35,471 bases of DNA, taken from positions 1-35,471 of IMG/VR virus record IMGVR_UViG_3300020455_000044. One strand, given 5' to 3'. Position numbers and translations under genes: made by a program. Positions 13,601-33,045 of the stretch are shown here, piece by piece; within the stretch, counting starts at the first letter, position 1, and every line of letters starts with the position of its first letter. The notes beneath the pieces are model-generated. The model saw only the letters and a list, made by a program, of their open reading frames with translations, ran no database searches and had not been told where the DNA came from. The stretch is from a virus.

Positions 13601-16600
13601 ATCTGATCAACGTTACTACGTTGAACTTAGACGACCATCTATTGCTCGTGCAGGTAACCACACATTTGAATACCTTGGTTTTGGTCCAGGTAACTACTCA
13701 ACTGGTCTACCAGCTAGACAAGAAGTAGTTCTAACACCAGAAGAAGACTTCTATGCTCAGTCTAAGAAGCAAGATGGTGGTATTGTATTCTACACTGGTA
13801 TTAACTCACAAGGTGATCTATACATTGGTAATAAGAGAATCAATGCTATTACTGGTGAAGAAACATTCATTGATAAAGCAGAACTTACAGATGATGGTGA
13901 TGAGGATGATACAATTGGAGGTTTAGTTACCACATTTGACACCCCTGTAACATTCAACCAGAATATTACAGTTATTGGTGGAGATGGACAACTACCTAAT
14001 ACATTTGAATCTCCTGTTGTTATATCTGTACAAGATGGTGACTTCACACAGCAGAAGGATTCCCTAATCATACGTTCAAATGTAGATAGTACAGAAAATA
14101 ATCTCGGCCAAATTGAGCAAGATGAAGGTTTAGATAGAACTGCATTCTCTCCACCAACTGAAGGTGATATTAGAATCAGTAAGAATACTATCAGATCTGC
14201 TGTATTTGGATTTAATGCTAGAGGTAAAGGACAATCTTATAAATTCCAGACACATACAGTTGAAGGCGTAGCTTCTAATATTACGCCTAATCAGTCTCTT
14301 CTTATTGCTCAAGGTGGAACTACAATTGGTGCAGAGCAGGTTATCAACTATGGTGGAGTTCTTCCAATACCAGGTGACGTTCTCTTTAAGGGATCTGAAG
14401 TTGGTAAGAATGGATCCATTGCTTGGGTACTTGCAAACTACTTTGCTACGATTGCTAATGATAGTATTGATAACATTCAGTTTGATGGAACCAACGTTGT
14501 TAAACTTTCATTCAGAAACCTTCAAAGTGGCGTTGCACTTACTAACACTGATATTGGTATCACATCTGGATCACAGATTAGAATTAAGAACCTATATTAT
14601 GATAATAGACTTAATTTAACTTGGACAGTATATGCTGCTAAGCCTGGCGATCCATTCTCACCAACAAATACTTACGTTCATTTCCAAGTTATTGATCAGA
14701 TTCCTCAGGATATTCAAGCATGGGAAGATATTATTAGTGGAATTCCTGTTGGTGGTGACACTCCTACTATTGAATTCTCTAATGCTAACTTCAAGGAAGT
14801 TGGTGTTCTAGGTGCTGAGGCATTAAGAACTGAGACTGAAACAATTGGTGAATACAAGTTAGGTATTAACACAATTGTTAGATCTACACATGATGCATAT
14901 AAGAATGCATTTGTAGAAGATAATAACACTGATCCAAAAGCAAACTTAGATGTTGTTGGTAACGTATACATCAGTGGACGTAGAACAACAGATTACCTAA
15001 CATATACACAGTATGCTTCTCGTACTAAGGCAAGAATTAATGATGCATTAGTTGTTGGTGGAGATAGCGATGTTATTACAGATTACGCTACATTACGTGT
15101 TTCTACTGAAACATCAGTAATTACTGAAGCTACTCGTGGAAATAATGAAGGTAAGGTTGGTGTTAATGTAACTGATGCTGAATTAGATAGAGCATTAGTT
15201 GTTAAGGGTGATTCAAGATTCACTGAAGACGTTAGATTTGAGCGTGACATTGAAGTCAATGGTGATGGAACCACAGCTGAAATCAGAACTTCTGAGACAT
15301 CTGGAACATTCAATGCTATAAGTGATAACACATTCATAGGAACACTTAACGTTGGTGACTTTGCTTCAACCATTTCAATTGGTAATCAAAGAACTGAAGT
15401 AGCAACATTAAATCTAGTTGATGGTGTTACTGGTGATCAATATATTAACATTGGTCGCAACAGTTTCCATAGTAATATTAATCTAGGTACTACACCAAAT
15501 ACACCAATCACTAATATTTCTAAAGTAGAAATTGGTGGTGCATATGGTAATAATGAAACATTATCTTATACTCAGATAAGAACTAAGTCATTTAAAATTG
15601 CTGGTGATGTACAGCTTGGTACTAGTAGAGAACTTGAAGATACAGTAAACTTAACAACAACTGCTGGAACTGTTAATTTCTTTGGTGGCAATAGTAATAC
15701 TAATATACTTAATTTTGCTACTAATGCTTCCGATATTACCATTGCTGGTCAGGGTGGAACAACTAGAGTTAGAAACAGTTTAATCGTTGATGCATCTGCT
15801 AGATTTAACTCTAGCATGACATTATGTGGTGGATTCTCATCATTCTCCTTTACTGCAGACAGAGCAAGATCTGGTTCTGAGAAGATTAACCATAGTTCTG
15901 GTATCTTAGGTAATAACCTATACAATAACAACGTTGATATTGTTACTGTTGATAGAGTAGCAACAAGTTCATCTAAGTATTGTACTGTTGACACTGCTGG
16001 TACTGGAAACTGGGGTGGTATTCAATATCAAGATGCTATCACCAATATTGGTGGTAACCCACAGATTGAACCTCAGGAACTTGTTCAATTAACAGGTAAT
16101 CAGGTTTACATACCATTAGGTCAATCTCCAGTTGATGAAAATGGTTCACCATGGTTAAAAGAAAATGATTATATTATTATAGATTCACCTGAGGGTGTTG
16201 GTGAAAATTATACCACACTTGCAATGGCTAGTGAAACACTAGGTGCCATTAGTTCAGGTGGTAGCTTCCTTGGTGTTGTTGGTAATGTATCAATTGCAGC
16301 AACTACACCAGGTGCTAGTGGTTCTACTGGTGGATTCAATACAAATCAGAATTATATTTGGTTCTCTGAAGGAGGATCTGGTAGTAGTTCATCTGGATCT
16401 GAAAGATCAGTTGCATTCTCTCCCGTAGATGGATCTAATCTTGGTGGTGCTGGTCCTATTTCTAGATTTGAAATAGATGCTATTGTAGGTAATAACACTA
16501 ACGGTGGTGAATATCCAGACGTTACTGATCCTTCAAGTGCAGAACATTTAGAACTACGTTATAGTTTAGATGCTTATAGCGTTGGTATTGCATCTGCTAC

Positions 16601-19115
16601 ATGGGTATTGATTGATCAAATAATTCCAATCCAAGACCTTAACACTATGGCTCCTGGTGTATCTAAGTTTACATTAGATGTTCCAGTTGCTGCACAACAG
16701 GCAAATGTAACCTTCCAGCTATATCAACCAAGTAACACTGGTGTAGATAACTATGGTATTACAAATGTAAGATACTTCAGTGCATCTAACTCTGGTGGTT
16801 TAACTCACGTTGAATTCTTGAAAGTTATATCTACTCCAAGAATATCAACTGCTCCATATTATATTGTTGCTGAGAGAGAACCATTTGGTACTTTCACAGG
16901 TGTAAGAAATGACCATCCTGATGGAACAGCAATCTACAAGTGTAACGTACAGTTTGACGCTACATGGATTACTGATGTAATTGATAATGTTGGTGATACA
17001 GAGGATGTATATCTTGCAGAATTTGGAGGCATCATTGCTACTAACGATTACGTTATCATTAGTAGAAGTGCTTCTGTTACAGATGTAGAACCAATTGTAT
17101 ATGATATTGGTGAGGTATTCCAAGTTAAGACCACACTTACACAAACAACTAAGAGTTTCACTGTTTCTAGTGGATGTGATGGTGGTGCTGCTAATGATGT
17201 ATTCACTATTGATTCAACAACTGGTGATACTTACATTGGTGGTGATCTAGTCATCAATAATAATCTTGATATATCTGGTGGTTGTGGAAGCACTGATAGA
17301 GGAACATTCCAAGGTAACCTTACAATTAATGCTGGTGAGGAATTTACATTCTTTATCAATAATATTAGCACTGCTGATCTTGCTAAGTTAAGTGTTAATG
17401 ATTTAATCTCGTTTGAATCTAACTTTGGTGGTGCATTATTACTTCCTGATACTAGAATTACAGAGATTGATGCAGATAAGGTTAAAGTTTCTAGAAACAT
17501 TCTCAGCACTCAAAACTTAACTAACGTTGTATTCAGAGCAGTAGTTAACGAAGAGTTTACTATTAAGAATGGTAATGATCAAAATACTCTTTACTTTGAT
17601 ACATGTGCTGCTACCATGGAAATTGGTAATCAGTATAGAAGACTTGATATTAGTAGGGTACTTCCAAGTACAGAAGCTACTTCTGTATCATATGCAAGAT
17701 ATGAAGGTAACGAGAGTACTATTAGATTATACTCTTATTGGGAAGATCCTCTATCAATACAGGCTAATGGACCTACTACTACCTTAACAGCTAATGCAAC
17801 AACAGGTGCAATTGCAGGGTCAGTTTACTTACAGGTTGACCAACTTGGTGAAGGTACTGGTGCATTTGCTGTTGATGATTTAGTTAGAGTTAATACAGCA
17901 TCAGGTGGTACTGGTGTTTGGGAGATGATGAAAATTGCTGCAGTTGATGTAGCAGGTAAGATTTTAAGATGTCTTCCTGGACAAGAAGGAACTGCTGCTA
18001 ATGATATTGCTAACTATGTTCAAGCAACTACTGATGTAGTAAGAATTCTTAAGCATGGTAAGTCTTCAAATCTTGTAGATATTGATTTACGTCAACGTTC
18101 TGGTGTAGATTATATTTCTGCTATCATTGACAATGGTATTATTGTACAAACTAAGTTAGATTATACTAACTGGTTACGTTTATATGATAAGAACACAGGA
18201 AATAGTGAATACTTCTTAGTTAACTTAGCACTCTTTGGTACTGTTCATACAGCTACCATGAATGAATTAGGTCAAGATGGAACTATACCATTCAGAAGAG
18301 GTAACTTAACTGTAAATGGTGAACTTACATCATATGGTGGTGGAGTTAATATCTTAGATTCTGTAGGACAGACAAGCATTGTTAAGGTAATTAATGATGA
18401 TGGTCATGCTGATCACTCTGGTTCTATATACTTTGATGCTGGTGTGATTGGTAGAGGTGATATTAAACTCTACTCATCATTTGGTCCTGAAGAAGTTCTA
18501 ACACTTGGTAACCAAGTTACATTTGCTGTTGATGTTTATGGTGATGCAGAGATAAGTAACTCTCTTACAATTAGAGGAACTGCTGCTGAGTCACCATCTA
18601 AGAGTCCACAGTTTAGCGTAACTAATCTTGGTATTAACGGTGCAAATTCATTCACAGTTAATAGAGATCAATCTATTGATGCATTTGGATTAACTAACTT
18701 CTATACTAAGACTGGTGGTAGACACTCACGTTACATTACTAATGGATCTGATCCTACTGATCTAAATCTAAAAGCAAATGTAACATACTTTGTTAATGTA
18801 ACAGATGCAAGTAGTTTAATTGTATACTTACCTGAATCACCAACTACAGGTGATGAAGTTAGAATTGTTGAAGTTGGTGGAAATCTTGGATTTGATACAA
18901 TGTTGGTTATGAGAGCATTAACTCCAAATACTAAAGTACAAGGAGATTCAACTGGAACTACAATCGGATTGAGTGGTACTACACCATACAATTCAGGTGA
19001 ACTTGTAGTACAGACAGCAAACGCTGGATTCACATTGGTATACCTAGGAGGAACGGATTCACAAGGCACCATCGTTTCTTCCTCTGTACAAGGATGGTGG
19101 CTAAGAGAGGTCTAA
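1611..19115 (+). CDS. Giant modular virion structural protein (5,834 aa)
   Basis: This protein of about 5,800 residues is probably a distal tail, baseplate or fibre component. Its N-terminus (MPLTRLDNLISSKTGKYLYV, then VSPDDFNATD) matches the type that opens large cyanophage virion proteins. Residues 1-640 look beta-rich, possibly beta-helical. Residues 650-3000 interleave two module types. One is helical, with NRxEIVDxA segments and CxRDxG...VDAxxxDLxxGGN blocks (Cys at about 733, 1019, 1157, 1521, 2398 and 2971, and a degenerate one at 2529). The other is a beta module with SLTFxC and YPRxTDP. The section after 3000 resembles fibre-shaft repeats. Residues 5672-5834 form a compact end domain with VRIVEVGGNL, SGELVVQT and a terminal VQGWWLREV. 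There are no transmembrane segments. It is driven by the TATAAATA box upstream and followed after 3 nt by collar-type genes. The structural role is confident; the exact virion position is inferred. Confidence 0.9.
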   Translation: MPLTRLDNLISSKTGKYLYVSPDDFNATDALSNRGNSPVTPFKSIQRAFLEIARYSYLPGFGNDRFDQFSIMLMPGIHYIDNRPGLVDTSGIDVFGFDQGTNAWTDDSILDLSNPDNVFYKFNNTEGGAIIPRGSSLVGYDLRRTVIRPLFVPDPAVTEREIPRSAIFNVTGGCYFWQFTLKDGQTTVESPLYDAAKGTGEVYYDPTDFSKKAAPNYSHHKLTVFEYADNEELGIFYRKIAKAFSAFQPTIDDPGEFDTRVQENRIVGPLSDSRVIESLKFTDATTDPSIPASTTEVEVTTKVDHGYFQGQFVAIANTEIDDVLEGIFQIKEIDQNDARKFKYDVPFVTSGIGSNIVSGQTISVDTTPALGQNAQTLAEVDSVESASPYVFNVSIRSTWGICGIWANGLKATGFKSVVIAQYTGVSLQKDDRSFIRYDEYTNTWNQASLTDAFATVPYHTKGDAYWKDEWRNFHVRASEDAFIQCVSIFAVGFADHFLMESGGDMSITNSNSNFGNTSLHAIGHKGFSFNQDKGGYITDIVPPKIVVDNTASTKKINYYTIDIQGTLQTSSNYTKLFLGSDNLGDPLDRPAATITGYRIGAKSDDKLYVKLDKAPGTDEFFDVSLEPTGFVKYVAKGSILNPTGGVVNSVYADAANLIESNRRMMQEEVFGYILEKYPRLQNIPYVNPGLNPAGNRFFDARNLIQANRQEIVDQAWNDTVMTFPNSASTETKCKRDIGLIVDAVSEDLKDGGNANIIAVAREYFDGDGNPIVNGLVGEERQGVYAFNRARDLCKQAIANLLTVKADLYDPDSNSNLATYGINVGKTGSQAEEDGDTTNGVTIDLAQKVDPASRYKDARNRVVANREFILDAALAEVTVYHPDFYHSVDGQTNSQSRLADAFRLIRRNSTEIKHKALASIAVAHPNFYIDGDQQTDSGSRYASAYRLIAENRDQIVDTALAETTVGHPDYFIPGDQQTDARSRYADGYRLIVQNRTEIVNTAWADMLVSYPNHGAYEEKCKRDLGIFVDAIALDLFVGGNKYSRKFISEYFSSSTTWISGGLQGEESQSIEAFNQARDQMKLAVANQLSIQDLTVTPGPAQYNGGGGDVANTNSGACDDVQSAIVTLTDIVTSCVSNGNLNSLPGETSYISGPGEEKCRRDIGIFVDSLALDLFLQSNVYSYRFAAEFFTDATTPVISYNSGVYITNVNKAAEYVKKALTNQLYFKDNGTQGAIDRTADNAPGSAYGQVSKDFTPHGATYTASSGDMVLDIANHGLSNGDRVKIADNSLTFNCLMDGGSSNKTYPRTSDPVSGQYIEITSSTTDSITVNVGASPEVTFTPTTGTTYDPNTGLMVLEIGAHSLTAGTSVKLAPNSLTFSCGFGGASGAAAEKTYPRSNGNDPFYNTSINIESVTATTITLQVLTTVPSTNTDAHTFVSATAGAVITGGNYTHTFVSAAADAVNFGGNTENELTDAQPFLCSDVQSAVDSLTSIVTGILADGDLNSMPVEVNYGTGKGPGEMKCARDIGYFIDAITVDMYCEGNKHTRAFTEQYFTNATTPLANGLVGEESEAVTAYNTAINEMKRAVTNQLYYKDLTVTEGLAIFSGGSPVGTPTAANYIASTGAITLTIPGNSLQNGDKVKIVPNALTFTCDMGTGSPHTWVGGTASNAVTVNGSVQKDVTDAAYTPTTGILELTIGSHSYTSADSITIATNSLTFTCDKDQNQTTHTYPRATDPAQGTTLQIISVTGSTITVNVGAVTGWKTYPRETDPAANTWLTVSNKSGDQFDVNVGASPIVAKNVTGAVYSGTDGTLELTIGAHSYTTLQSIFLEPASLTFTCDMDGHATEHTYPRVSDPAYNTALPITAVTATTITVDVGTTPIVNHDVTDATYVPSTGELELTIGSHSIPAPTTFTPTDVAYDPISGVLTFTHTAGEGAFENDDEIKIADDSLTFSCDAPMGTHVFVQGLPNGILDNLSGNHTAVAGTTYTPATGVLEIEIGSHTLTTSNTVTIAENAVTFTCAADNNASNHAYPRATDPAFGQALAITAVTATTITVNVGIANASTPNGNEGTYPRATDPVRGKWLTISNATATTFDVNVGEANVGSTHTFVSATTGAITKSNARIKIGDEKLSFTCDYNGDGNNTVKSYPRNTIDTATATTGTTYNASTGLLKITTLSNHGFQDGDFVKFEDGSLTFKCDEDSQQTNHAYPRSTDPVSGEWIKIDNVTGNTFEVNILQGTTPTNTTTHVFVSGTQYGIKAKRDRAYDQAMTVIGTSATTITLNVGISSDTSTHTWAGGTSVNAIQSGGSYNHIFVSATSGAVKTGGDYNHTFVKSAVNAITTTTDTVESRTSPNACADVQSAIDTLGTIATDAITAGNITGGIWNSPVNNGTFITGEAKCRRDLGIVVDAVAQDLWFGGNEFTISATKEYFQGNQLLANGIDATKEVAPAITAFKRAEELMQRALNNTYYDRDLNITLDAGGDPPIVSNIECDAHDIVLANKEFIAKEAYLRMKVAYPSYTPSAGNTEQDCLDDVYDVLREVMWDVKFGGNYKTYDVAKGYITNDFNGTTYPQILQDVERDEVAKVFTEVKDIAIQVMKQETVTVSSGNTLVQKIDDTIVDDWDNDELLPKCGSVASALDTLMGIIVQAIGNDGGVGNLNGIQRSTYGGSDPAWNTSLNIISKTATSITINVGVAAAQDQFAHTFISAAAGAVISGGNYDHTFVSAATGAINVVNGSQITPNNATYDPATGYLVFYFGAPHGVLVSDQLSIDANSLTFSCGMDQNNTTKTYPRIGTDPVAGANVNPVSVTTYSITVDVGASPLVNHNVSNAVYDAATGDIALTIGSHSLEVGTSIKLREESLVFSCTKDQNKTTHAYPRSATKYQPSAYADGNCSDVLATVNALVDIICTSLNDGNLNSLPPLSSGEWDCANVRSSIENLYDIITEAIETGSLDNLPVLNTGDYTIDNEASKCFRDVTYIVDAIVNDLRLGGNINSIQAGEAYYVGMNLEYIDGEKTETLDAWNYTGSIATAAMRNFDVLAFNCSTTSGSAIIDVNDTRGIIIGMSVKEYENSRGQINPSTPAFVHGLLQDNAVATFSNIPEGTYVKRIVSNTQVELGVNGSRLAEGNTVNALQSSTTTDLYFVYESGIWADTLPTTVTVGPEIDGPDIIQDTLTSTSYRECSGTADAIETIVGNITTIINSGLGTVTRQEQTVNTALLASRATVFTIDTGGNPSDPHKFETGTPVRLVPRPRFDVVTKTYVDVDKRLVRLPNGFETNRTYYVIAPGRVTQPENYGSTSFFDGNDQTRLMLATSKENAAAGIYIYASETDAIDKDVEIDLYQFVLDDSYDLHNYKSQLSTAIVAGIETDVSHIFDKPSSSIGSSEAQTVFIRAIEGGLLPLVGTQFASNSSVAVTDTSDANVGRINPNVAFFVRYANNKTFTIHQTYADSINGANPIIFATGQAGLVFDVFANKRRSPMRFDPTFTDNVTSTGKWYIACKDEVSGQPENVKKNNVFWRIQLSDYADRSKSTDMWYERLDDTRTADDRTYKIRYVIPKYLENARDPINGFVLKTRTDDTRKLVPQKVLLKPVVGTVYGARFENPVQAGEYIGYDSNDFLSNNLNLDAAYDPYKKDLTGSGIEYRGFARFTSGVQSTIQSGRYVEDTLDPSIKYLELTLNDHTIDTKNFPGLRNEILTTIKINAPQGGNFVVSKVDNQASDGNAISFSGNSSGLANVHAYYTTAGQHYLIIKNIRGGTLEYSEYNNTRFTQGTVFADMLEDQDSGKSLPLKTNIAKGLTQYYYKQNGANVYTITPGDRIQDDAGVEYYVASVEDTGIIDDTFYIFGYETLQKRIAGQQDGIYYITALRGNLSPFPTGAGVTNNFKKFKFSQPVSKLYPLNFRNDPLWFKNSGTTQEEKDYYAGLIDPPATFSAADNYTQGLVTVNDFKNSLTRELIGDFVAQPAFVDNTFTSGNQIQAQSGNATSGSEDRLIPISGDSTVLSDQRYYVELRRPSIARAGNHTFEYLGFGPGNYSTGLPARQEVVLTPEEDFYAQSKKQDGGIVFYTGINSQGDLYIGNKRINAITGEETFIDKAELTDDGDEDDTIGGLVTTFDTPVTFNQNITVIGGDGQLPNTFESPVVISVQDGDFTQQKDSLIIRSNVDSTENNLGQIEQDEGLDRTAFSPPTEGDIRISKNTIRSAVFGFNARGKGQSYKFQTHTVEGVASNITPNQSLLIAQGGTTIGAEQVINYGGVLPIPGDVLFKGSEVGKNGSIAWVLANYFATIANDSIDNIQFDGTNVVKLSFRNLQSGVALTNTDIGITSGSQIRIKNLYYDNRLNLTWTVYAAKPGDPFSPTNTYVHFQVIDQIPQDIQAWEDIISGIPVGGDTPTIEFSNANFKEVGVLGAEALRTETETIGEYKLGINTIVRSTHDAYKNAFVEDNNTDPKANLDVVGNVYISGRRTTDYLTYTQYASRTKARINDALVVGGDSDVITDYATLRVSTETSVITEATRGNNEGKVGVNVTDAELDRALVVKGDSRFTEDVRFERDIEVNGDGTTAEIRTSETSGTFNAISDNTFIGTLNVGDFASTISIGNQRTEVATLNLVDGVTGDQYINIGRNSFHSNINLGTTPNTPITNISKVEIGGAYGNNETLSYTQIRTKSFKIAGDVQLGTSRELEDTVNLTTTAGTVNFFGGNSNTNILNFATNASDITIAGQGGTTRVRNSLIVDASARFNSSMTLCGGFSSFSFTADRARSGSEKINHSSGILGNNLYNNNVDIVTVDRVATSSSKYCTVDTAGTGNWGGIQYQDAITNIGGNPQIEPQELVQLTGNQVYIPLGQSPVDENGSPWLKENDYIIIDSPEGVGENYTTLAMASETLGAISSGGSFLGVVGNVSIAATTPGASGSTGGFNTNQNYIWFSEGGSGSSSSGSERSVAFSPVDGSNLGGAGPISRFEIDAIVGNNTNGGEYPDVTDPSSAEHLELRYSLDAYSVGIASATWVLIDQIIPIQDLNTMAPGVSKFTLDVPVAAQQANVTFQLYQPSNTGVDNYGITNVRYFSASNSGGLTHVEFLKVISTPRISTAPYYIVAEREPFGTFTGVRNDHPDGTAIYKCNVQFDATWITDVIDNVGDTEDVYLAEFGGIIATNDYVIISRSASVTDVEPIVYDIGEVFQVKTTLTQTTKSFTVSSGCDGGAANDVFTIDSTTGDTYIGGDLVINNNLDISGGCGSTDRGTFQGNLTINAGEEFTFFINNISTADLAKLSVNDLISFESNFGGALLLPDTRITEIDADKVKVSRNILSTQNLTNVVFRAVVNEEFTIKNGNDQNTLYFDTCAATMEIGNQYRRLDISRVLPSTEATSVSYARYEGNESTIRLYSYWEDPLSIQANGPTTTLTANATTGAIAGSVYLQVDQLGEGTGAFAVDDLVRVNTASGGTGVWEMMKIAAVDVAGKILRCLPGQEGTAANDIANYVQATTDVVRILKHGKSSNLVDIDLRQRSGVDYISAIIDNGIIVQTKLDYTNWLRLYDKNTGNSEYFLVNLALFGTVHTATMNELGQDGTIPFRRGNLTVNGELTSYGGGVNILDSVGQTSIVKVINDDGHADHSGSIYFDAGVIGRGDIKLYSSFGPEEVLTLGNQVTFAVDVYGDAEISNSLTIRGTAAESPSKSPQFSVTNLGINGANSFTVNRDQSIDAFGLTNFYTKTGGRHSRYITNGSDPTDLNLKANVTYFVNVTDASSLIVYLPESPTTGDEVRIVEVGGNLGFDTMLVMRALTPNTKVQGDSTGTTIGLSGTTPYNSGELVVQTANAGFTLVYLGGTDSQGTIVSSSVQGWWLREV
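3558..10640 (+). repeat. Repeated helical modules inside the giant virion protein
   Basis: Two related helical units recur. The first is about 45 residues long, with an (S)RYxDAxRLIxxNRxEIVD core followed by HPDFY and GDQQTD; four clear copies lie at 4165-4640 with more divergent ones at 3558 and 3700. The second carries CxRDIGxxVDAIxxDLxxGGN, then a YF and a GLxGEE...AFNxAxxxMKxAVxNQL tail. Its Cys codons lie at about 3807, 4665, 5079, 6171, 8802, 9195 (degenerate) and 10521. The copies are diverged, so they are recognised in protein rather than as near-identical DNA repeats. Confidence 0.8.
5385..10250 (+). repeat. Array of about eleven beta modules with SLTFxC and YPR motifs
   Basis: A unit of roughly 60-100 residues recurs. 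It contains YxPxTGxLELTIGxHSL, then an xNSLTFTCDxD segment, then a HxYPRxTDP motif, then TATTITVNVG, often followed by HTFVSATxGAV. I count eleven SLTFxC-type strands from about 5470 to 10200 and eleven YPR motifs. One Cys per unit is kept throughout. The array is interrupted by helical modules near 6010-6410 and 8640-9550. Spacing and linkers vary, which suggests gain, loss and divergence of units. Confidence 0.8.
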
Positions 19116-20550: not shown

Positions 20551-22014
20551 ATGGCAAGTTTTTATACAAAAGAAAAAGCAAAACATGGAACTATGACTGG
20601 TTCTATTATATCATTTCCTATAGAAATAAGGGAAGTTAATCCTAAAGACCCTGTTACTAGAAAATTATTACCTGCTGGTTATTTAAGATGTGATGGTAGT
20701 GTTCAGTTTGCTAGAGAATATCCAGAATTAGCAATAGTCTTAGGAGTGGGTTTAGAAACAAAGTACGCAAAAGATGGTCAAGTTCTTACTAACGATGAGT
20801 TTCAACTTCCAGATCTAAGGAATAAACATATTAGAGCTACAACATCATCTAATATTGGTTTGTATAATGATTTAACTGTGCAAGATGCAAATGATCAAAC
20901 TCAGTTTAAATCTGGTATTGGCTTAGATGTTGTTCAAAATATTGATAGTCCATATCAATTGAATTATACAGGAGATTTTTATATACCACCACAAACAATA
21001 GAATTAAGAGGTGAACCAAGATTTACTGTTGATACTGGTGTGTATACTGCAACAGCTGAAGTTCCTCAAAATGCTTTTCAACCACATTTACATAGAACAT
21101 CAACTAATCAACATAGACAAAAAGATAATAGTGGTAATTTCTTTAGAACTAGACAACGAAATCATAAATCATCAGTAAGTACATTAAATATATGTCCATG
21201 GTTTACTAATACTGCTCAACCATTATGTAAACATCAATGGGAAAATGAAATGCAAGTAGGTAGATTTCATGCTGTTGATCAACAACAAGGTGCTATGGAT
21301 TATGATTATTATGGTGCATGTTTTAGTGGTTGTCTTAATTTTGGTACTGCTGGATATTGTCTCTGGCCAGAGCAAGGATTATGTGCTGATGAACCAGAAG
21401 CTGCAAACCAATGGCAGAATGTTACTTGGCAAAATAGACAAGCAAATGAAGGAGATGGTGCAGACGATCAAAGATATTGTGGATCTGCCCCAAAAACTTC
21501 TGACTTAACTGGTAATGAAGGTCCAGGTCAAGGTGTTACCTTTGGAAATATTTTTTATGAAACTACATTATATCAAAAATGTGATTGTGGTTTTGTTATC
21601 TTTGATAATCCAATCAACTGCGATATGGATGGTCAAGATAATACAGCTGTTTCTTCCTCAGTTTTAGAAAATTACGGTCCTAATAACAATTATCCTGGTA
21701 ATTATGAGAGTGTTGGTTCTACCGCAAAGAATTTACCATTTAGTAGTAATGATGATGAAAATTATGGTGTCGCTTACTCTGGAGTTACTAATACAGTTAC
21801 ATTATCAGGTGAAAATGGTAATGATGGTTCTCATAGACATAGAATAGGTTTTGATTCTGATGAAGAACATACGTATAAAATGATAACAAGAGCTGGGTTT
21901 GCTAGAGCTGATAGTGGACTAGTTTCTAAGATTACCATAGAGAAAAATAACTCTAAGAAGGCAGATAAATACATACAGCCATACATCGTCACGGAATATC
22001 TGATTAAAATCTGA
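20551..22014 (+). CDS. Tail-collar-domain protein with Cys-rich central region
   Basis: This 487-aa protein is a second collar-type protein. Residues 16-66 carry TGSIISFP, then LPAGYLRCDGS, then EYPELAIVLG, followed by the QLPDLRNKHIRA strand expected after a collar domain. A His-rich stretch around 179-190 (HLHRTSTNQHRQ) resembles the metal-binding or fibre-core His of gp12-like proteins. Residues 215-365 hold most of the cysteines (for example near NICPWF, ACFSGC, YCLW and KCDCGF), an unusual density for a phage fibre that could mean disulphides or bound metal. The C-terminus ends in QPYIVTEYLIKI, a collar-type final strand. The gene starts 1 nt after the previous stop and overlaps the next by one base (TGATG), so the three are translationally coupled. 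Confidence 0.82.
   Translation: MASFYTKEKAKHGTMTGSIISFPIEIREVNPKDPVTRKLLPAGYLRCDGSVQFAREYPELAIVLGVGLETKYAKDGQVLTNDEFQLPDLRNKHIRATTSSNIGLYNDLTVQDANDQTQFKSGIGLDVVQNIDSPYQLNYTGDFYIPPQTIELRGEPRFTVDTGVYTATAEVPQNAFQPHLHRTSTNQHRQKDNSGNFFRTRQRNHKSSVSTLNICPWFTNTAQPLCKHQWENEMQVGRFHAVDQQQGAMDYDYYGACFSGCLNFGTAGYCLWPEQGLCADEPEAANQWQNVTWQNRQANEGDGADDQRYCGSAPKTSDLTGNEGPGQGVTFGNIFYETTLYQKCDCGFVIFDNPINCDMDGQDNTAVSSSVLENYGPNNNYPGNYESVGSTAKNLPFSSNDDENYGVAYSGVTNTVTLSGENGNDGSHRHRIGFDSDEEHTYKMITRAGFARADSGLVSKITIEKNNSKKADKYIQPYIVTEYLIKI
21964..21971 (+). promoter_or_regulatory. Possible internal late promoter (GATAAATA)
   Basis: GATAAATA matches the cyanophage NATAAATA late box and lies 42 nt upstream of the ATG of the 2,168-aa gene, inside the end of the preceding gene. 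The position fits a late promoter giving extra transcripts of the longest collar gene. It may also be a chance match in a Lys-rich coding end. Confidence 0.4.
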
Positions 22015-25000
22015 TGGTACAATATAGATCTCCTTATAAAAATTTTTATAGCGATAAAACTGGTTCCTATATGACTATAGGTGCTATCGTTCCTTCATTG
22101 GTAGATAGTTATTCCACATCTGTAAGTTCCTCAATAACTGGAGAAGGTGTTGGTGGAGAAGATCCATCGTATAATTATAAAAACTTTCTTTATTGTGATG
22201 GAGAGAAATATAGTATTAAAGACTATCCATTATTATATGAAAAAATAGGTAATGAATACAATTTAACAGAAGAAGCAGTATCAAATAATTCTATAAGATC
22301 TGAATCATCAGGTGCACCTGGTACAGTTTATAGGACATTCGTAGATAATGGTAATGTGTTTGCTGAGATACATTCAGAACCAATACCAAATACTACTGAA
22401 TATAAAAGATTAATTCCAAATAATGCTCAATTAACATTTGAATTATTAAATGATTATCCTACTGCTAATGGACAAGTTGTACAAGGAAGACAATATATTT
22501 TAGAATATTCAGATACATTTCAATCACTTGCATCACAAGCTGATACACATGTCTTTAGAATATTAATAAATTATGATGCTGCAAATAATACAGGTGGTGC
22601 TCCAGGTGGTACTGTTAACTGGGTTCTAACATCTATAACATTAATACAAACATCAGATGTAAATTATCCTCTTATATTACCAGAGACTAATTATGGTACT
22701 GTACCTGCTCTAGATCCAGGAACATTTGATCCTTTAACAGGAACAGGTTATCCTACAGGTTATTCTCAATATGGTAATGCTAATAATGATACACCAGCAT
22801 TTTCATGGGCAAATTTGAGTGGATTACCTGCAAATGTTAATGTAGATACTTATGAAATATTAATTGAAGACTTATCTACAGATGTAAGAACTAATTGGCA
22901 TGTTCAAAACATACCAAGTACAACTACATCTTTTTCTGTTAATCAACAACTTCCTGGTGGTTCTACACTTCAACAAAATACAGTTGAGCAATCATCTATT
23001 GGTTCTGCTCCTGAATGGGTTAACAATGGTTATTCAGGACCACAACCACCAACAGGTCAGAAGCATATCTATAGATTTCATGTACAAGCAACATTAAATA
23101 ATTCACAGCAGATTTGTACATATCAAGATTTTACAGCTGGTGGTGGATCATTAATACCATTATATAATAGAAGTCCTCAGTTAACAGAAAATTATACTGT
23201 TACTGGTGGTAATTCTGGTATTGTAGACACAAGTTTAGATGTAATTATTGGAGATTTAACTAATCAACCACGTATTAAAATAAGAAAAGCATTTAGTATT
23301 TCAGATTTACCACAGGTTCTTGGAGAGTTTAGAGTACCTGATTATAGAGATAGAAAATTAATTGGGTTTGGTCAAGGTGTTGATGGTGCTGGTACTCCTT
23401 TAGTAGGAGATAGAATTACCATGGAAGTTGGTGATGTTGGTGGACAATGGTTTATTGGTACAGATACTATTGAAGATCCTGCTGAGTTTTATGAGATAAG
23501 TGATGTTCTTACTACAGGATATACAAGCGTTAATACATTAGTTCAACCATATCTAACAGGTGAAAAGAAATATACTGTAGGACCAGTTGAAGACTATATT
23601 TTTGCAAGACCACCAGCACACCAACATAATGTATTAGGAAGTGAACCAGATGATACTACTGAAGCTAATCCAGTGGGTGTTGATAGATTTACTACAGGAT
23701 ATAGTAGAGTAAAAGGATATGTTGAAAATTTCATACCTAATTTACCTAGTGGAGAAACATTAGGTCATGCTCATGGATTATTAGGATATAGACCATTAAG
23801 TCCAAGGACTTCTACGTATGGTAATGTAGCAGGTATTGGTGAAAAAATACCAACTAATGCATTAGATGATTTAACATGGGATGTAGATAGTGCTGAACTA
23901 ACATGGACATTGAGTGGTACTGCTTTACTTGATTGGGGTAATGGAGTAGGAGAAGTTGGTGGATTCCTTAGTCCTGGTAGTGGGACAAAATATCTAGGAT
24001 TTGGTAGTACAGGAAATACAACATTTGCAACTCATCAAGCAACTAGAGATGCATCATTTACTTTAACTGTTACAGGATATACTAAATTCTTTGCATTGGG
24101 TATCATGGGTAATGATATCAATGGTGGTGAGAGATGCAATGATACTACTGATAATCTTAAAATAAGATTTACAGGTGCTGGTACTGCTGCAACATCACCA
24201 TGGTATGAATTGATGGAATCTGCTGGTTCATATAATATAAACAATAATAGTACTGGATTTGGTGCATATGACGCTGTTTATCAAGTATGGAAAAATAGAG
24301 AAGTTGATATACCTGTAATATATCAAGATGCTGCAGAACAACCTATAACTATAGAATTGCAACAAACATCTGATAGTGGTGTATCAGGTGCTGATCCAAT
24401 TGGTGAATATGTAAGTGCTAATAATATTACTGGTACATTGAATGATCCTGTTGGTGCTGCTTTCCATCCTAATGGTTATGATGCAGTTGGTGTTGCAAAG
24501 ATTGGATTGAGAGCAGGTTCAGAAGGCACTTGGGATAATTGTTATAATTATAAGATTACAGAACCAGGATCACTTCCAATTGTTAGTGCTTCTTCTGGAA
24601 GTGGCGTAATGACAATAATATTTGTAGGAACACATACATTTGAAGTTGGTGATAATGTAATATTACAAAACACACTAACTGATTTGGATGGTGCATATAC
24701 TATCTTAGCAGCTAACTTTACACCATCATCATTCCAAGTATTGTGCGACGTAACTGACTCTGCTGGTTTTGGTTCAGTTAGATTAGCGTCAGGATATTTT
24801 ACTGATGTACCTGTTACACCAACACCAAGAGTTTGGGTAGTTGATGATACTACAACTATTGGTGGTAAAGAGATAATTGTTACTACACCAGGTGAAGGAG
24901 AAGAAAGATTTCTAAACACATATGATAGTGGTACTGCAAACTTAGCATCAAATGCAGGTGGAGAAAACATTACATCTTATACCATTAGAATGACTGGTGG

Positions 25001-28000
25001 TGGTGGAGGAGGAGGCGGTTCCTCAGGTTCGGGTGGAAATGGATTTGATACATCTGTAACTTTAACAGTTGATGGTAATCCATATACTATTACTGCAGGT
25101 GGAGGATTAGGTGGACAAGCTGGATCTAATGGAGGTCAAGGTGGACAAGGAGGTACATATACAATACCTGCAGCGATATTCAATGATCCTAGATTTACAT
25201 TTAACATTAGTTCAAATGGTGATAATGGAACTACAGGTGGTGTAGGAAATGGTGCAACTCCTGCAGGTGGACAACCAGTTTTCTGGAATGATAGAGGTAA
25301 TGGTGGTGCTGGTTCATATGATAATTTTACCAATACAGGATCTGCATCACAAACATGGTCAACATCAACTACTAGTTGGACACAAGTATATGGTCCTGAT
25401 TATAGTGCTGGAACAAATTATGTTGAACTAACAGGACAATCTACTGGATCGTGGGTAAATACATGGCCATGTAATATACAAATATCACCAGTTCGTACAG
25501 CTGATATTAAAACAACTGCAGTTAATAGTCCTAATGGTTTAGGACAGTCAAATATTTGGAAGGTTCAACCAACTGTTCAGTGTGGTTTAAATTGGGATTT
25601 AGGATCTGCTAATGCAATTCAAGGTTCAACTATATTTGGACAACCAAATAGTTGGGTTAATGTATATGGACCTAGTGCCAACACTGCTGCAGGAAACTTT
25701 ATGGAAACCACATCAAATGGTGATGGTTTGGTTATAGATCCAGTAAATCCTGATGCAGCAAATAAATCTGGTATGATGGGATTCCATTTTTATTATGAGG
25801 GAGTTTTAAGAGCAATCAACCCATATGGAAGAAATGGTCCTTCATATGAAAATGGTACATGGAACTATTGGGGTTGTTATAGATTCAAAGGAGGAAATCA
25901 ATTAGCAGGTACTTCTAATATTGCTATAGCATTTAATACAAATGGTGATATGGTTGTTACTGGTCATGGATTTGCCCAGATAGATTTTAATTTTGAATGG
26001 TTAGACGGTGGATCTAATGGATATGCATTAGGAACTGTATCATGGCAGATTGGAGGACAAACTGTATCATTTACTCAGAATCAGGGGCAAACTTCTGGTC
26101 AAGATAATACTAGTTTTACTAACATAGCAGTAACAGCTAATAACACTTATCCTTGTACTATAACAGGTGCTAATGGTGCTGGATTTACTGTTATTTCTGC
26201 ACCAGCATTTCCTGGTTTATGTTTCAAAGATGGTTCTGGAAGTGATTGTAATGCCAAAGTAGAAGTTACTGCTATTAATAATCAATCACAAACTAGGTAT
26301 CAACTAGAAGTAGAACAAATGCAGTTCCCTACTTATGAACATTCTCCAACTCAAAGGTTTGATGTTTGTGAAGTTAGTACAATATCGGGAGCCTTTTCCA
26401 ATTCTCATACTGAGACTACACAAATGAATTGGGTTTGTGATGTATCAGAGGAGCAATTACAAGGTGGTGGTGGAGGTGGAACATACACATATTATTATAA
26501 TGGTGCAAGTGTTGGTTCTAACGCAGATGGTGCACAGATAGTAACTGGAACTACTGCTGGTTCATACAGATATAGTAAGGGAGTGAGTGCAGGTACTAAT
26601 CTATGGGAGATTAGGGTAGAACAATTAACAACTACTGGTTCAAGTGCTACTACTGGTAGTATTGATGTTAATGATATTCCTGGAGTGCCAGATGAAGAAA
26701 ATGCTTCAGTCGCATATGTAGACATTGATATTTCTGGTGGTGCTGGTGGTAATGGTCCTGGTAATGGTATAGGAGGATGTGTTGGTTATGGTGGTGGTAC
26801 TGCATCACCAGGTAGAAGAGTTACAGGAAGATTAAATGCTTTTAATGGTGTACTTGATTGGACTATAGGACAACAAGGAGATCAAGGTGTAAACCAACAA
26901 GTAGCAAATAGTGGTGAACCAGCAGCTAATGGTGGTAGTGGAGCAGATGGAGTAGGTAATGGTGGTAATTCAGGATCAGGTGCATGGGGTAACGGTGGAT
27001 CTGGTGGAGGTGGCGGTGGTGCCACTGGTTTGTATATTGGGGGTTCTGCAATCGCTGGTGCTGGAGGCGGTGGCGGTGGCGGTGGTTCAGGTGGAGGATG
27101 GAACGGTGGTGGTATCACTGACCCATGCTGGACTGGTGGTGCAGGTTTAGGACCAACACAAAGTTTATATGAATCAACTCTATTCACATTCCAACCTGGT
27201 GGAACAGGTGGATCAAAAGGATGTACCTCTGGTGGTGGAGGAGGAGGTGGCGGTGGTGCTGGTCCTTCTTCTGGAGGTGCTGGTGGTTCTGGTGGTGTCG
27301 CTGGTGCTGGTCATGTTAATACGGGTTCAGGATCTGGTGGTAATGCAGGTAGATCGGCAATTAGTACAACTTGGGTCACTTCTCCTAGTGAATCAGCTGG
27401 ATCCACAGGTGGAGGATATGTTACACTTACTGCATATTTTGAAGAAGATGGAGCAAATCCATCTGGTGGTGGAGGAGGAAGTGGTGCTGGATTAAACATA
27501 GGAATGCAACCATTAACTACTTCAGATGATATATCAACATCATTCTTTGTTGAAGTTGGTAATGGTGGTGCAGGTGGTGCAGGTGGTCAAGGAGCAGCTA
27601 CAGCAAATGGTAATCCAGGTAGAGTAGAAATAGGATGTTATGGAAGATTGCCTGGTGAAGATGATGTAACTGGTATATCAGTTCCAAAAGGAGTATATTA
27701 TGAAGTTCCAAACTTCCCAGATGGTGCTTATGATATATCACAAGCAGGTGCAGGTATTACAACGACTGCTGCTAACATATGGCATTCAGCAAGTGAGGAA
27801 ATAAGTGTTGTTGGATCTGTTGGTGATAACTTTGCAGTTGCAAGTAATATCAGTAATGGTATGGCTAATAGACATATTAGATACACTGGTCTAGGCAATA
27901 GATTCTTACAAATTGGTCCTTTAAACTTACTTAATGCTGATAAGGTTACATTTGGTGTTATTAAAGGTAATGGATCTAATGGTGGTGAAGCACCAGAAGA

Positions 28001-28520
28001 AGCAATAGATTGTTATTATAAGGTATCATTAGATGCTACATCTGAAAGTATTCTTCAAGCTGTGGCAACACCACAAAATGTAAGTACATCAGGGTGGGCA
28101 AACTATACAATTGATATTGATGAAGAAAGTGATGCAAGAATAAATGGTGCATATTTAATAATAAGACAAACAAGACCAGATGGTTCAGGAGATAACCCAA
28201 ATGAACAGGGTGGATCTGTTAATGATAACTGGGGTCTTGCAATGGTTGGTGTTAGGTATGCAACTTATACTGAAAGAATATTTGTTCCAACATTAAATGC
28301 ACAAATTCCTGGTAATGTAGGTGATTGTGGACCTGAGGATGGTATTGATGAGATTAGAAGAGTAGTTACTGCAAAAGATTCTAATATTAGATTCACTGAT
28401 GGTACATTAACTCTATCTTCATCTACACCAATATCTGTGAACGGTACTGCAAGTGTTCAGGATAGTATATCTCTAATCACTAAATACCATCGTTCTAAAT
28501 ACCTCATCAAAGCGATGTAG
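22014..28520 (+). CDS. Large collar-type fibre protein with polyglycine-rich adhesin-like segments
   Basis: This 2,168-aa protein is the third collar-type protein. Residues 21-83 show TIGAIVPS, then FLYCDGEKYSIKDYPLLYEK and GNEYN, a collar domain with an insertion. Two His motifs (HQHNVLG near 536, GHAHGLLG near 584) resemble the metal-binding region of T4-like short fibres. Between and beyond lie beta-rich segments. Polyglycine tracts occur at about 993-1050, 1483-1490, 1576-1770 and 1818-1863, with runs of up to eight or nine Gly. Comparable Gly-rich motifs form a polyglycine-II sandwich at the receptor-binding tip of gp38 adhesins in T2/S16-type phages. The C-terminus ends in a hydrophobic YLIKAM. 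The start overlaps the previous stop by one base. The structural role is confident; calling it the receptor-binding tip is an inference. Confidence 0.87.
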   Translation: MVQYRSPYKNFYSDKTGSYMTIGAIVPSLVDSYSTSVSSSITGEGVGGEDPSYNYKNFLYCDGEKYSIKDYPLLYEKIGNEYNLTEEAVSNNSIRSESSGAPGTVYRTFVDNGNVFAEIHSEPIPNTTEYKRLIPNNAQLTFELLNDYPTANGQVVQGRQYILEYSDTFQSLASQADTHVFRILINYDAANNTGGAPGGTVNWVLTSITLIQTSDVNYPLILPETNYGTVPALDPGTFDPLTGTGYPTGYSQYGNANNDTPAFSWANLSGLPANVNVDTYEILIEDLSTDVRTNWHVQNIPSTTTSFSVNQQLPGGSTLQQNTVEQSSIGSAPEWVNNGYSGPQPPTGQKHIYRFHVQATLNNSQQICTYQDFTAGGGSLIPLYNRSPQLTENYTVTGGNSGIVDTSLDVIIGDLTNQPRIKIRKAFSISDLPQVLGEFRVPDYRDRKLIGFGQGVDGAGTPLVGDRITMEVGDVGGQWFIGTDTIEDPAEFYEISDVLTTGYTSVNTLVQPYLTGEKKYTVGPVEDYIFARPPAHQHNVLGSEPDDTTEANPVGVDRFTTGYSRVKGYVENFIPNLPSGETLGHAHGLLGYRPLSPRTSTYGNVAGIGEKIPTNALDDLTWDVDSAELTWTLSGTALLDWGNGVGEVGGFLSPGSGTKYLGFGSTGNTTFATHQATRDASFTLTVTGYTKFFALGIMGNDINGGERCNDTTDNLKIRFTGAGTAATSPWYELMESAGSYNINNNSTGFGAYDAVYQVWKNREVDIPVIYQDAAEQPITIELQQTSDSGVSGADPIGEYVSANNITGTLNDPVGAAFHPNGYDAVGVAKIGLRAGSEGTWDNCYNYKITEPGSLPIVSASSGSGVMTIIFVGTHTFEVGDNVILQNTLTDLDGAYTILAANFTPSSFQVLCDVTDSAGFGSVRLASGYFTDVPVTPTPRVWVVDDTTTIGGKEIIVTTPGEGEERFLNTYDSGTANLASNAGGENITSYTIRMTGGGGGGGGSSGSGGNGFDTSVTLTVDGNPYTITAGGGLGGQAGSNGGQGGQGGTYTIPAAIFNDPRFTFNISSNGDNGTTGGVGNGATPAGGQPVFWNDRGNGGAGSYDNFTNTGSASQTWSTSTTSWTQVYGPDYSAGTNYVELTGQSTGSWVNTWPCNIQISPVRTADIKTTAVNSPNGLGQSNIWKVQPTVQCGLNWDLGSANAIQGSTIFGQPNSWVNVYGPSANTAAGNFMETTSNGDGLVIDPVNPDAANKSGMMGFHFYYEGVLRAINPYGRNGPSYENGTWNYWGCYRFKGGNQLAGTSNIAIAFNTNGDMVVTGHGFAQIDFNFEWLDGGSNGYALGTVSWQIGGQTVSFTQNQGQTSGQDNTSFTNIAVTANNTYPCTITGANGAGFTVISAPAFPGLCFKDGSGSDCNAKVEVTAINNQSQTRYQLEVEQMQFPTYEHSPTQRFDVCEVSTISGAFSNSHTETTQMNWVCDVSEEQLQGGGGGGTYTYYYNGASVGSNADGAQIVTGTTAGSYRYSKGVSAGTNLWEIRVEQLTTTGSSATTGSIDVNDIPGVPDEENASVAYVDIDISGGAGGNGPGNGIGGCVGYGGGTASPGRRVTGRLNAFNGVLDWTIGQQGDQGVNQQVANSGEPAANGGSGADGVGNGGNSGSGAWGNGGSGGGGGGATGLYIGGSAIAGAGGGGGGGGSGGGWNGGGITDPCWTGGAGLGPTQSLYESTLFTFQPGGTGGSKGCTSGGGGGGGGGAGPSSGGAGGSGGVAGAGHVNTGSGSGGNAGRSAISTTWVTSPSESAGSTGGGYVTLTAYFEEDGANPSGGGGGSGAGLNIGMQPLTTSDDISTSFFVEVGNGGAGGAGGQGAATANGNPGRVEIGCYGRLPGEDDVTGISVPKGVYYEVPNFPDGAYDISQAGAGITTTAANIWHSASEEISVVGSVGDNFAVASNISNGMANRHIRYTGLGNRFLQIGPLNLLNADKVTFGVIKGNGSNGGEAPEEAIDCYYKVSLDATSESILQAVATPQNVSTSGWANYTIDIDEESDARINGAYLIIRQTRPDGSGDNPNEQGGSVNDNWGLAMVGVRYATYTERIFVPTLNAQIPGNVGDCGPEDGIDEIRRVVTAKDSNIRFTDGTLTLSSSTPISVNGTASVQDSISLITKYHRSKYLIKAM
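26737..27600 (+). repeat. Glycine-rich low-complexity coding region
   Basis: GGN/GGA codons dominate this stretch within the 2,168-aa gene. There are at least three homopolymeric Gly runs, near 27005, 27062 and 27236, and many Gly-Gly-X or Gly-Ser-Gly-Gly units. GGC codons appear inside the runs, raising local GC relative to the flanking sequence. The region is prone to slippage and recombination, which would change adhesin loop length. Confidence 0.8.
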
Positions 28521-31321: not shown

Positions 31322-31330
31322 AGGGTGTGC

Positions 31331-31344
31331 CAGTTTACAAACTG
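31331..31344. repeat. 14-bp inverted repeat, possible operator
   Basis: CAGTTT and AAACTG flank two central bases, forming a near-perfect dyad just upstream of a TATAAT box. A two-base spacer is too short for a good RNA hairpin, so a protein-binding site is the more natural reading. No repressor gene is identified. Confidence 0.4.
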
Positions 31345-31377
31345 TATATTATTGTTCCGCATTCACTCTGTATGCAC

Positions 31378-31383
31378 TATAAT
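31378..31383 (+). promoter_or_regulatory. Promoter -10 box TATAAT
   Basis: A perfect TATAAT lies 26 nt upstream of the ATG at 31410 in an 88-nt gene-free gap. The -35 is weak: TTGTTC at 31352-31357 is 20 bp away and TTCCGC at 17 bp is poor. The promoter may need an activator such as the dyad-binding protein suggested upstream. A good Shine-Dalgarno (CGGAG near 31399) follows. Confidence 0.55.
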
Positions 31384-32352: not shown

Positions 32353-32390
32353 CCACCATGATGGACAGTTGAATAAGTGCACACTAGCTA

Positions 32391-32419
32391 CTGACACGGA
32401 CGTTGAAATATACTATTAT
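32391..32419 (+). promoter_or_regulatory. Sigma70-like promoter of the structured leader
   Basis: CTGACA (32391-32396) and TATTAT (32414-32419) each match five of six consensus bases and are separated by exactly 17 bp. The expected start, seven bases after the -10, is at about 32426. That is the first base of the 5' strand of the long helix described next. Confidence 0.72.
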
Positions 32420-32425
32420 ATAAAT

Positions 32426-32569
32426 GTTGAGAGATCACTAGGTTTCTAACTACTCTGACAAAAGCAAGGATCTATGGTTGTCTCTGTTCAGCAGAGAAAT
32501 TACGTCCTTTAAGTCTAATAGAAGCAGAGACATGACGTTAAAGTAATTTACTTACCCTAGTCTCTCAAC
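32426..32569 (+). ncRNA. Candidate structured RNA or 5' leader, unknown class
   Basis: The 144-nt segment is closed by a long interrupted helix. GTTGAGAG (32426-32433) pairs with CTCTCAAC (32562-32569), and after a 3-nt ATC bulge ACTAGG (32437-32442) pairs with CCTAGT (32556-32561). Inside, TCTCTG/CAGAGA (32481-32486 with 32492-32497) forms a hairpin with a TTCAG loop. A second CAGAGAC (32525-32531) can pair with the same GTCTCTG. CTTTAA/TTAAAG (32507-32512 with 32538-32543) and AATTA/TAATT (32498-32502 with 32544-32548) extend it. A 12-codon open frame with an AAGGA lies at 32474-32512. No intrinsic terminator follows, so it could be the leader of the gene at 32596. No known riboswitch or phage RNA class is recognised. 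Confidence 0.55.
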
Positions 32570-32595
32570 ACTCAATTCAATTCTAATTATTTTAA

Positions 32596-33045
32596 ATGAC
32601 CAAAACTCAATTCATTCCTGTAACTGATACTGTTAGACAGTACACTGAGGAACTATGTGAAGTGTTGGGCAAGCAATATGTTAATTACAGTATAGCATCT
32701 CATGAGAGAACTCTAGCTAGAGGTGAAGGATCAAACTATTCCATTAATAGACTGAACGCTCTCAAAGATGGTACTGAGAAAGATGTAATTACATTTAGAA
32801 TTGAAGAAGGACGCAAGTATCACAAGATTATACAAGTAGAGTACGATACATTCCAGAATAGAAATGAGTATAAAGACTCTGGTGTACATGCATTTGTTGA
32901 CAAGAAGACTGGTGCAGTTTATAAACCTGCATCATGGAAGTCTCCTCACACTAAATACGTACGCTTCAATCTATTAGATGAGCAGTCTCGTGTTGATTGC
33001 TTTAATAGAGCAGACTGGGCAGGTGGTTACCTCTATCTTAGATAG
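32596..33045 (+). CDS. Hypothetical protein, 149 aa, behind a structured leader
   Basis: This 149-aa protein is soluble and basic to neutral. It has an N-terminal helical part (TVRQYTEELCEVLGKQYVNY) and a C-terminal beta-rich half with HAFVDKKTGAVYKPASWKSP, ending in ADWAGGYLYLR. That C-terminal pattern recurs in uncharacterised phage proteins I have seen, without a known role. It is the first gene after the candidate structured RNA, about 170 nt from the predicted transcription start. No Shine-Dalgarno is visible, so the leader may control access to the start. A new promoter follows 3 nt after its stop. Confidence 0.8.
   Translation: MTKTQFIPVTDTVRQYTEELCEVLGKQYVNYSIASHERTLARGEGSNYSINRLNALKDGTEKDVITFRIEEGRKYHKIIQVEYDTFQNRNEYKDSGVHAFVDKKTGAVYKPASWKSPHTKYVRFNLLDEQSRVDCFNRADWAGGYLYLR

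Follow-up and report, generated by a model that had tools for sequence, protein, structure and literature searches.

A promoter-coupled, modular structured RNA in a gene-free gap of a T4-like cyanophage: a candidate 5′ leader

Introduction

T4-like cyanophages are among the most abundant viruses of the ocean, but almost nothing is known about the RNA-level control of their genes. The question treated here is raised by a gene-free gap in a viral record of 35,471 bases, the whole of which is hereafter referred to as the window: does the gap encode a folded RNA and, if so, what kind of RNA is it likely to be? The DNA and PHROG/Pfam matches identify the record as that of a T4-like cyanomyovirus, the DNA matching the Prochlorococcus phages P-SSM2 and P-SSM5. 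A sequence-only reading had proposed that a sigma70-like promoter in this gap is aimed at the first base of a long helix, and that the transcript is a candidate undescribed phage RNA, acting either as a cis-regulator of the following 149-aa gene or as a free RNA.

Results

The gap and its outer helix

The gap lies at 32353–32595 and has the proposed length of 243 nt. The helix is also present as described: GTTGAGAG (32426–32433) pairs with CTCTCAAC (32562–32569) and, after a 3-nt bulge, ACTAGG (32437–32442) pairs with CCTAGT (32556–32561), which gives 14 bp. The assertion that such a helix is unlikely to occur by chance was borne out, since the best Watson-Crick helix of the gap reaches 15 bp, against a mean of 9.3 (sd 1.2) in 150 dinucleotide shuffles, only one of which attained that length. 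The fold of the gap is moderately stable (MFE −38.7 kcal/mol, z = −2.5). The features discussed below are listed in Table 1.

Table 1 Features of the predicted leader and its flanks (window positions)
Feature	Position	Strand	Evidence or remark
Imperfect palindrome GACAGTT-GAAT-AAGTGC (GACAGTTGAATAAGTGC)	32364..32380	+	Conserved element upstream in the promoter; possible operator/activator site; begins 50 nt ahead of the −10 box
CTGACA, claimed −35	32391..32396	+	Unconserved in relatives
−10 box TATTAT	32414..32419	+	In 45/68 elements, a −10-like hexamer precedes P1 by exactly 6 or 8 nt
TATAAAT, T4-late-like motif overlapping the −10 region	32419..32425	+	Sequence; alternative late promoter
P1 5′ strand GUUGAGAG-AUC-ACUAGG	32426..32442	+	First base = predicted +1
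P2 5′ strand UUCUAAC	32444..32450	+	Covariation; one C-A mismatch with 3′ strand
P3 5′ strand CUCUG, conserved UA before	32453..32457	+	Covariation
Socket 5′ rim GAC	32457..32459	+	
Module K (GCAAGGAUCUAUGGUUGUCUCUGUUCAGCAGAGAAAUUACGUCCUUUAAGUC), 52 nt, separate RNA domain in P3 loop	32464..32515	+	Covariation
Socket 3′ rim GAAG	32521..32524	+	>20 different inserts between GAC and GAAG
P3 3′ strand CAGAG	32525..32529	+	Covariation
ACAUGAC, conserved internal-loop strand, P3–P2	32530..32536	+	
P2 3′ strand GUUAAAG	32537..32543	+	Covariation
Joining strand UAAUUUACUUAC, P2–P1	32544..32555	+	UAAU-like sequence conserved
P1 3′ strand CCUAGU-CUCUCAAC	32556..32569	+	
Spacer to start codon, 26 nt, U/A-rich	32570..32595	+	G-free, single-stranded, no Shine-Dalgarno
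149-aa gene, PF24835 DUF7717, phrog_818	32596..33045	+	Downstream of leader; unknown function

A covarying scaffold inside the helix

The sequence-only reading was right about the outer helix, but it missed two inner helices, P2 and P3, and a 52-nt core (module K). The structure built on the outer helix is hereafter referred to as scaffold A: its base is P1, the 14-bp helix described above, and inside it follow P2 (7–8 bp) and P3 (NNCUG/CAGNN); conserved UA/ACAUGA and UAAU strands connect the helices. About 100 occurrences of scaffold A were found in the DNA of myoviruses of Prochlorococcus and Synechococcus, among them S-SSM4, P-SSM7, and P-SSM2, and the RNA occurs in more than 100 viral DNA fragments as well as in the cultured phages P-SSM2, P-SSM5, P-SSM7, and S-SSM4. 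It should be noted that the pattern used in searching for the scaffold contained ACATGA, which bears on the apparent conservation of the ACAUGAC strand.

All the scaffold helices covary. Because the lengths of P1 differ, P1 was evaluated by comparing own-arm with cross-arm duplexes, and P2 and P3 were evaluated in an inner alignment; the P1 starts were set from anchors, local helix extension having run into promoter sequence. In the alignment of 35 sequences, 99.0% of the P2/P3 cells are paired, with 76 compensated cells as compared with 20 in shuffles, while the slid controls stay at or below 41%. P2 occurs in more than 35 sequence combinations, nearly all of them paired and most with 7–8 bp. 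Since one parser required the P3 pairs, these were re-tested against circularity without that requirement, and the variable pair was complementary in 81 of the 82 elements even though complementarity was not demanded. For P1 (17 arm clusters), the mean duplex energy is −18.5 kcal/mol with the own partner, −12.75 with the partners of other types, and −12.5 with shuffled ones; in a few clusters, for the most part those of hybrid three-way elements, the own-arm value is no better than the cross-arm one. A conserved RNA is expected to show compensatory helix changes in excess of both shuffled and slid controls, and this is the case here. The claim of a structured RNA therefore survives one of the checks on which it had been made to depend, namely covariation of the helix strands among relatives.

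The energy model gives a different picture of the interior. For the window copy, the covariation-supported fold has −25.0 kcal/mol and the MFE fold −37.0 kcal/mol, and the mean pair probability is only 0.06 for P2/P3, as opposed to 0.90 for P1 and 0.88 for K. The MFE fold was nevertheless rejected as the true interior structure, because P2 and P3, which it omits, covary. As the model disfavours P2/P3 in this copy, a partner or a switch is possibly needed: these helices may be transient, supported by a protein, or part of a switch.

Two other interpretations of the distribution were discarded. A repeat dispersed within each genome was rejected, since none of the models gave more than one match in any record; likewise, A and K each occur at most once per complete phage genome or larger contig searched. 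A loose pattern gave at least 119 matches in bacterial genomes, of which only two among those listed meet the TA + P3 rule, and these are regarded as chance occurrences because they sit in unrelated taxa. No scaffold copy in host genomes was seen among the matches listed, although this search was non-exhaustive.

Module K and the P3 socket

In a distant DNA search against phage records, 32461–32515 proved to be 98% identical to stretches in unannotated gaps of P-SSM2 and of marine single-cell virus records. Pattern scans of viral contigs found 69 stretches with the exact K core and, as a lower bound, more than 119 with a relaxed core; in the fetched loci, 154 copies of K were counted in at least four contexts. 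The variation of the K sequence tracks pairing, and the idea of a leader peptide or coding sequence was set aside for this reason. Among 55 sequences, 92% of the cells are paired, 87 cells are compensated on both sides as compared with 29 in shuffles, and 10 of the 21 pairs are altered on both sides, whereas sliding the partner by 1–3 columns lowers the pairing to 49% or less. The pairing-preserving variants include GGAU/GUCC, GGGU/GCCC, GAAU/GUUC, AGAU/GUCU, and GACU/GGUC, and further CUCUG/CAGAG, CUCAA/UUGAG, CUUGA/UUGAG, and UUUA/UAAG. The variable pairs were not part of the K search pattern; TCTATGGTTGTC and GAAATTACG were, so that their invariance is partly imposed.

The P3 loop behaves as a socket, which depending on the phage is bare, filled with K, or filled with one of more than 20 other inserts. 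In S-SSM4 and P-SSM7 the scaffold lacks K, and the P3 loop is only UUA. Among the parsed elements, the socket holds 3 nt in 38, K in 19, module N in 19, P in 6, and the large element C in 5, besides more than 12 further inserts. Scaffolds that are at least 95% identical carry different contents (K/N, N/bare, P/bare, and others). K also occurs in the loop of element C (14 copies), in hybrid elements (9), and on a variable stem of its own (101), 37 of the last group preceding module B.

Several of these partners were noticed in passing. Modules N (a hairpin, CTTAATTAGACT-covarying stem-AGTTAGNATAG) and P (AGTAAACCGCCCGAAGCG...) are candidate RNA domains of P3 sockets without an Rfam match; examples of socket inserts are found in L062, L203, L165, and L072. 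Element C (GGGTTCAGGTGTAAGCGATTCCC...GTAAATTTGGGC...) is likewise a structured leader; it has an outer helix of its own and a socket that holds K or module D (GGTATGGTGAGAGTCCATACT...). It occurs at L005:2270-2480 and L007:2300-2480, in L004 and L070, and in other loci; those that were scanned gave no Rfam match.

Module B (GAGGAGATGGATGTGCCTC-covarying hairpin-AGAACTAACATCC; e.g., L001:2553-2615 of P-SSM2, L007, L036, and L012) is a candidate pseudoknot, which in other phages is often found behind K and which is absent from the window. In 105 of its 107 distinct copies it is followed by a palindromic hexamer, of which there are seven (GCTAGC, CACGTG, CTATAG, CCTAGG, CCATGG, GCATGC, and TCTAGA), and the two exceptions, CCTTAGG and CCATTGG, are palindromes around a central T. 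The rule held in 49 of 51 cases in a test set of newly fetched loci. This suggests the formation of an RNA dimer or a two-fold DNA site.

A promoter at a fixed distance from P1

Judged by consensus alone, a sigma70 promoter is not beyond chance (20 sites versus 22.6 expected in shuffles). It was retained only because the spacing of its −10 box is conserved among relatives. A −10-like hexamer lies exactly 6 nt before P1 in 34 of the 68 distinct elements and 8 nt before it in 11, while any other offset is found in at most 4. With the usual six-base discriminator, these spacings place the +1 on the first base of P1 or two bases before it, and transcription should accordingly be expected to start at, or within two bases of, that base. 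A leader requires an upstream promoter whose +1 falls at the RNA; this is fulfilled in 45 of the 68 elements, on sequence alone.

The aim of the promoter at the first base of P1 is thus upheld, and the hexamers CTGACA and TATTAT, 17 nt apart with a predicted +1 at 32426, do exist; the "−35", however, is not conserved. No conserved −35 was found in the Prochlorococcus-type leaders compared, and the assignment of CTGACA as a sigma70 −35 lacks support. An exception is formed by the S-SSM4-type leaders, which read TTGACA, 17 nt, TATAAT, and 6 nt, followed by P1. The promoter type of the window copy is ambiguous, because a TATAAAT resembling the T4 late promoter motif (quoted in PMC3037559) overlaps the region; this late-like motif is absent from most other P1 types.

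What is conserved upstream is an imperfect palindrome; in 40 of the 56 distinct leaders it begins 49–51 nt ahead of the −10 box, irrespective of whether the intervening DNA is coding or a terminator. A sequence resembling an intrinsic terminator directly precedes the promoter in 17 of the 56 leaders, as compared with a background of 8.7%. In P-SSM2, about 15 promoters of the palindrome class were detected with a weight matrix, nearly all at 44–69 kb, where about 0.3 per strand would be expected randomly; they lack scaffold A except for one at 55,810. A class of this kind suggests a dedicated regulator, and it may reveal a transcription regulator of the phage or the host.

In general form, the class consists of the palindrome GTGCCAGTT-N4-AACTGGCAC at the above distance from TATAAT-like boxes. 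The window contains a second member at 31329–31383 (GCCAGTTTACAAACTG, with TATAAT 49 nt on), which precedes a 64-aa gene at 31410; its leader is short and unstructured.

About a dozen distinct scaffold A elements, of the GTGAGAAAC/GTGAGAGAC/GTGTAAGACAG type, have no −10 box at 6–8 nt. They share an upstream GGGGGACGC-TAAAGTGT-N5-TAGTGAG (e.g., L019, L037, L163, and L203), and possibly use another type of promoter or lie internally in a longer transcript.

The relation to the downstream gene

The distance from the 3′ end of P1 to the ATG of the next ORF is 13–29 nt in 39 of the 56 elements; in the remainder, mostly further modules (K or B) intervene. The elements thereby have the position expected of a leader, on the same strand as an adjoining gene, although co-transcription is inferred from sequence alone. 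The spacers that were read contain no terminator ahead of the start codon, so that the 3′ end of its own that a trans-acting sRNA should have is missing; nor did a conserved expression platform, by terminator or by SD sequestration, come to light there. The spacers are poor in G (6% versus 17%), and an SD-like sequence precedes only 12% of the scaffold-led starts, as compared with 24% of all ORFs. The latter is weak evidence, because SD sequences are generally rare in these genomes.

The genes that follow the leader are diverse among the phages, being mostly those for small unknown proteins and including a DNA methylase; the shared pathway expected downstream of a riboswitch is not found. Of the two roles suggested by the sequence-only reading, a cis-acting leader is favoured over a free RNA because of the tight distance to the start codon. 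The tie to the 149-aa gene does not hold, since relatives carry the leader before many different genes.

Relation to known RNAs

The gap has no match in Rfam 15 at E ≤ 5, nor does the bare scaffold; the statement that no known class is recognized is thus confirmed and, together with the covarying helices, supports a candidate undescribed phage RNA. In the 16 related loci searched, neither scaffold A nor K was matched, and the bare-scaffold loci yielded only a tRNA and a chance match far below the gathering score. Judged by these comparisons, the gap RNA is real, folded, and uncatalogued, and it is part of a larger system than had been seen.

Structured 5′-UTR RNAs are known in cyanophages (PMC2864571, PMC9964418), namely the cis-regulatory candidates manA (RF01745), wcaG (RF01761), and glnA (RF01739). 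They share with scaffold A and K the location in the 5′ UTRs of T4-like cyanophages, but scaffold A and K differ from them in sequence and architecture, in the modular socket, and in the absence of a common gene theme. As cited in PMC4503421, the promoter early stem-loops (PeSLs; Arbiol 2010, Comeau 2014) are promoter-hairpin cassettes of T4-like phages. The present leader resembles them, so described, in combining an early-type promoter and hairpins before genes of plastic regions, where PeSLs are linked to shuffling; PeSLs appear, however, to be promoter-terminator composites, while the leader is a covarying scaffold that extends from the +1 into the next gene and has exchangeable modules. 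Structured mRNA stabilizers such as the ompA leader share with it a stem at the very 5′ end and an unstructured ribosome site behind, but they consist of one hairpin each and are not known to have a conserved scaffold, a socket, or modules that plug in.

No description of the scaffold or module elements was found in the literature, large lists of predicted viral RNAs being outside the scope of the search. Within this reach, a scaffold that is locked to its promoter and has an exchange socket is undescribed; it may sit unnamed in such lists.

One known RNA lies elsewhere in the window: manA, at 1–76, is the only Rfam match in the window to reach threshold. It is cut by the window start and is located upstream of a 327-aa gene (phrog_27790).

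Discussion

We consider the RNA to be a cis-acting, modular, structured, and promoter-coupled 5′ leader of a cyanophage message, with a probability of about 0.5. Its cis position is well supported. Comparison of the related elements establishes the fixed promoter spacing, the covarying P1-P2-P3, the exchange socket, and the G-poor, unstructured spacer of 13–29 nt as sequence features; the mechanism is inferred, and so are the expression, the 5′ end, and any binding partner of the leader, for which there are no RNA data. According to the mechanism that we propose, the 5′ end of the transcript would be sealed in P1, which would hinder 5′-end-dependent decay of the RppH/RNase E type, and the open spacer would serve as a landing site for ribosomes. 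The conserved internal loops, together with the plugged-in module, might form the surface recognized by a ligand or by a protein of the phage or the host, and the bound partner would then set the stability or translation of whichever gene follows. A leader whose start site is locked to its first helix and whose socket takes exchangeable domains would provide a testable system for the control of phage mRNA stability and translation and for the shuffling of RNA domains.

The partner might be a small molecule. A riboswitch-like aptamer, in which conserved loops of scaffold A, of K, or of both would recognize a metabolite or an ion and switch translation or transcription of the gene, the exchange of modules being an exchange of ligands, would account for highly conserved loop sequences inside covarying helices of a 5′ UTR and for the two competing folds of the window copy, and other candidate riboswitches (manA and wcaG) occur in cyanophages (PMC2864571). 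We regard it as possible but unlikely: the downstream genes lack a metabolic theme and differ between phages, no conserved expression platform was seen between P1 and the ATG, and some of the loop invariance was imposed by the search patterns. Nor is it probable that the RNA is a free, trans-acting regulator, decoy, or structural RNA that merely happens to precede a gene in a compact genome. The presence of at most one copy each of A and of K in the genomes searched suits such an RNA equally well and counts against the leader reading to that extent, and the RNA has its own promoter, an unconserved downstream gene, and, in 17 of 56 cases, the upstream terminator-like sequence of an independent unit; what weighs against it is the absence of a terminator behind the element, the narrow range of distances to the next ATG, and the frequent order of K, another module, and then a gene.

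Two further possibilities start from the promoter. The put RNAs of phage HK022 are structured and lie immediately downstream of an early promoter, and the present RNA has the same position, conserved loops, and a region in which terminators are common; a processive antiterminator RNA, which would attach to the polymerase soon after initiation and enable it to read through terminators further along, is thus conceivable. It is nonetheless very unlikely, since the architecture differs, neither a sequence nor a structural relation to put was seen, there is no evidence of antitermination, a genome usually has one such leader, and most promoters of the class have none. Slightly less remote, though doubtful, is the idea that the promoter-hairpin unit is kept mainly for recombination or insertion in the manner of PeSLs, the modules being small mobile elements. 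The terminator-promoter-hairpin architecture, the exchange of modules on near-identical scaffolds, the presence of K in several sockets, and the precedent of PeSLs in T4-like phages (cited in PMC4503421) would agree with this. A pure recombination site, however, would not need the selection on RNA folding that is implied by the strong compensatory evolution of P1, P2, P3, and K, and nearly all of the P-SSM2 promoters of the same class lack the RNA.

Returning to the cis-acting leader, we tentatively extend it, with less than even confidence, to a combinatorial system. Its scaffold would be locked to the promoter and offer a standard socket, and many autonomous RNA domains (K, N, P, C, D, G, and others) would be plugged into it and swapped among phages; one sister module at least, B, would assemble into symmetrical RNA dimers by way of its interchangeable palindromic hexamers. 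Such a set could constitute an undescribed toolkit of phage RNA regulators.

Other features of the window

Two further observations concern proteins. An ORF of 5,834 aa occupies 1611–19115, upstream of the tail fibre and collar genes, and the sole Pfam match within its first 2,300 aa is a weak one to Phycobilisome over a 47-aa stretch. The region 22014–28520 encodes a virion protein of 2,168 aa, which carries a phosphatidylethanolamine-binding (PBP/PEBP) domain at residues 254–360.
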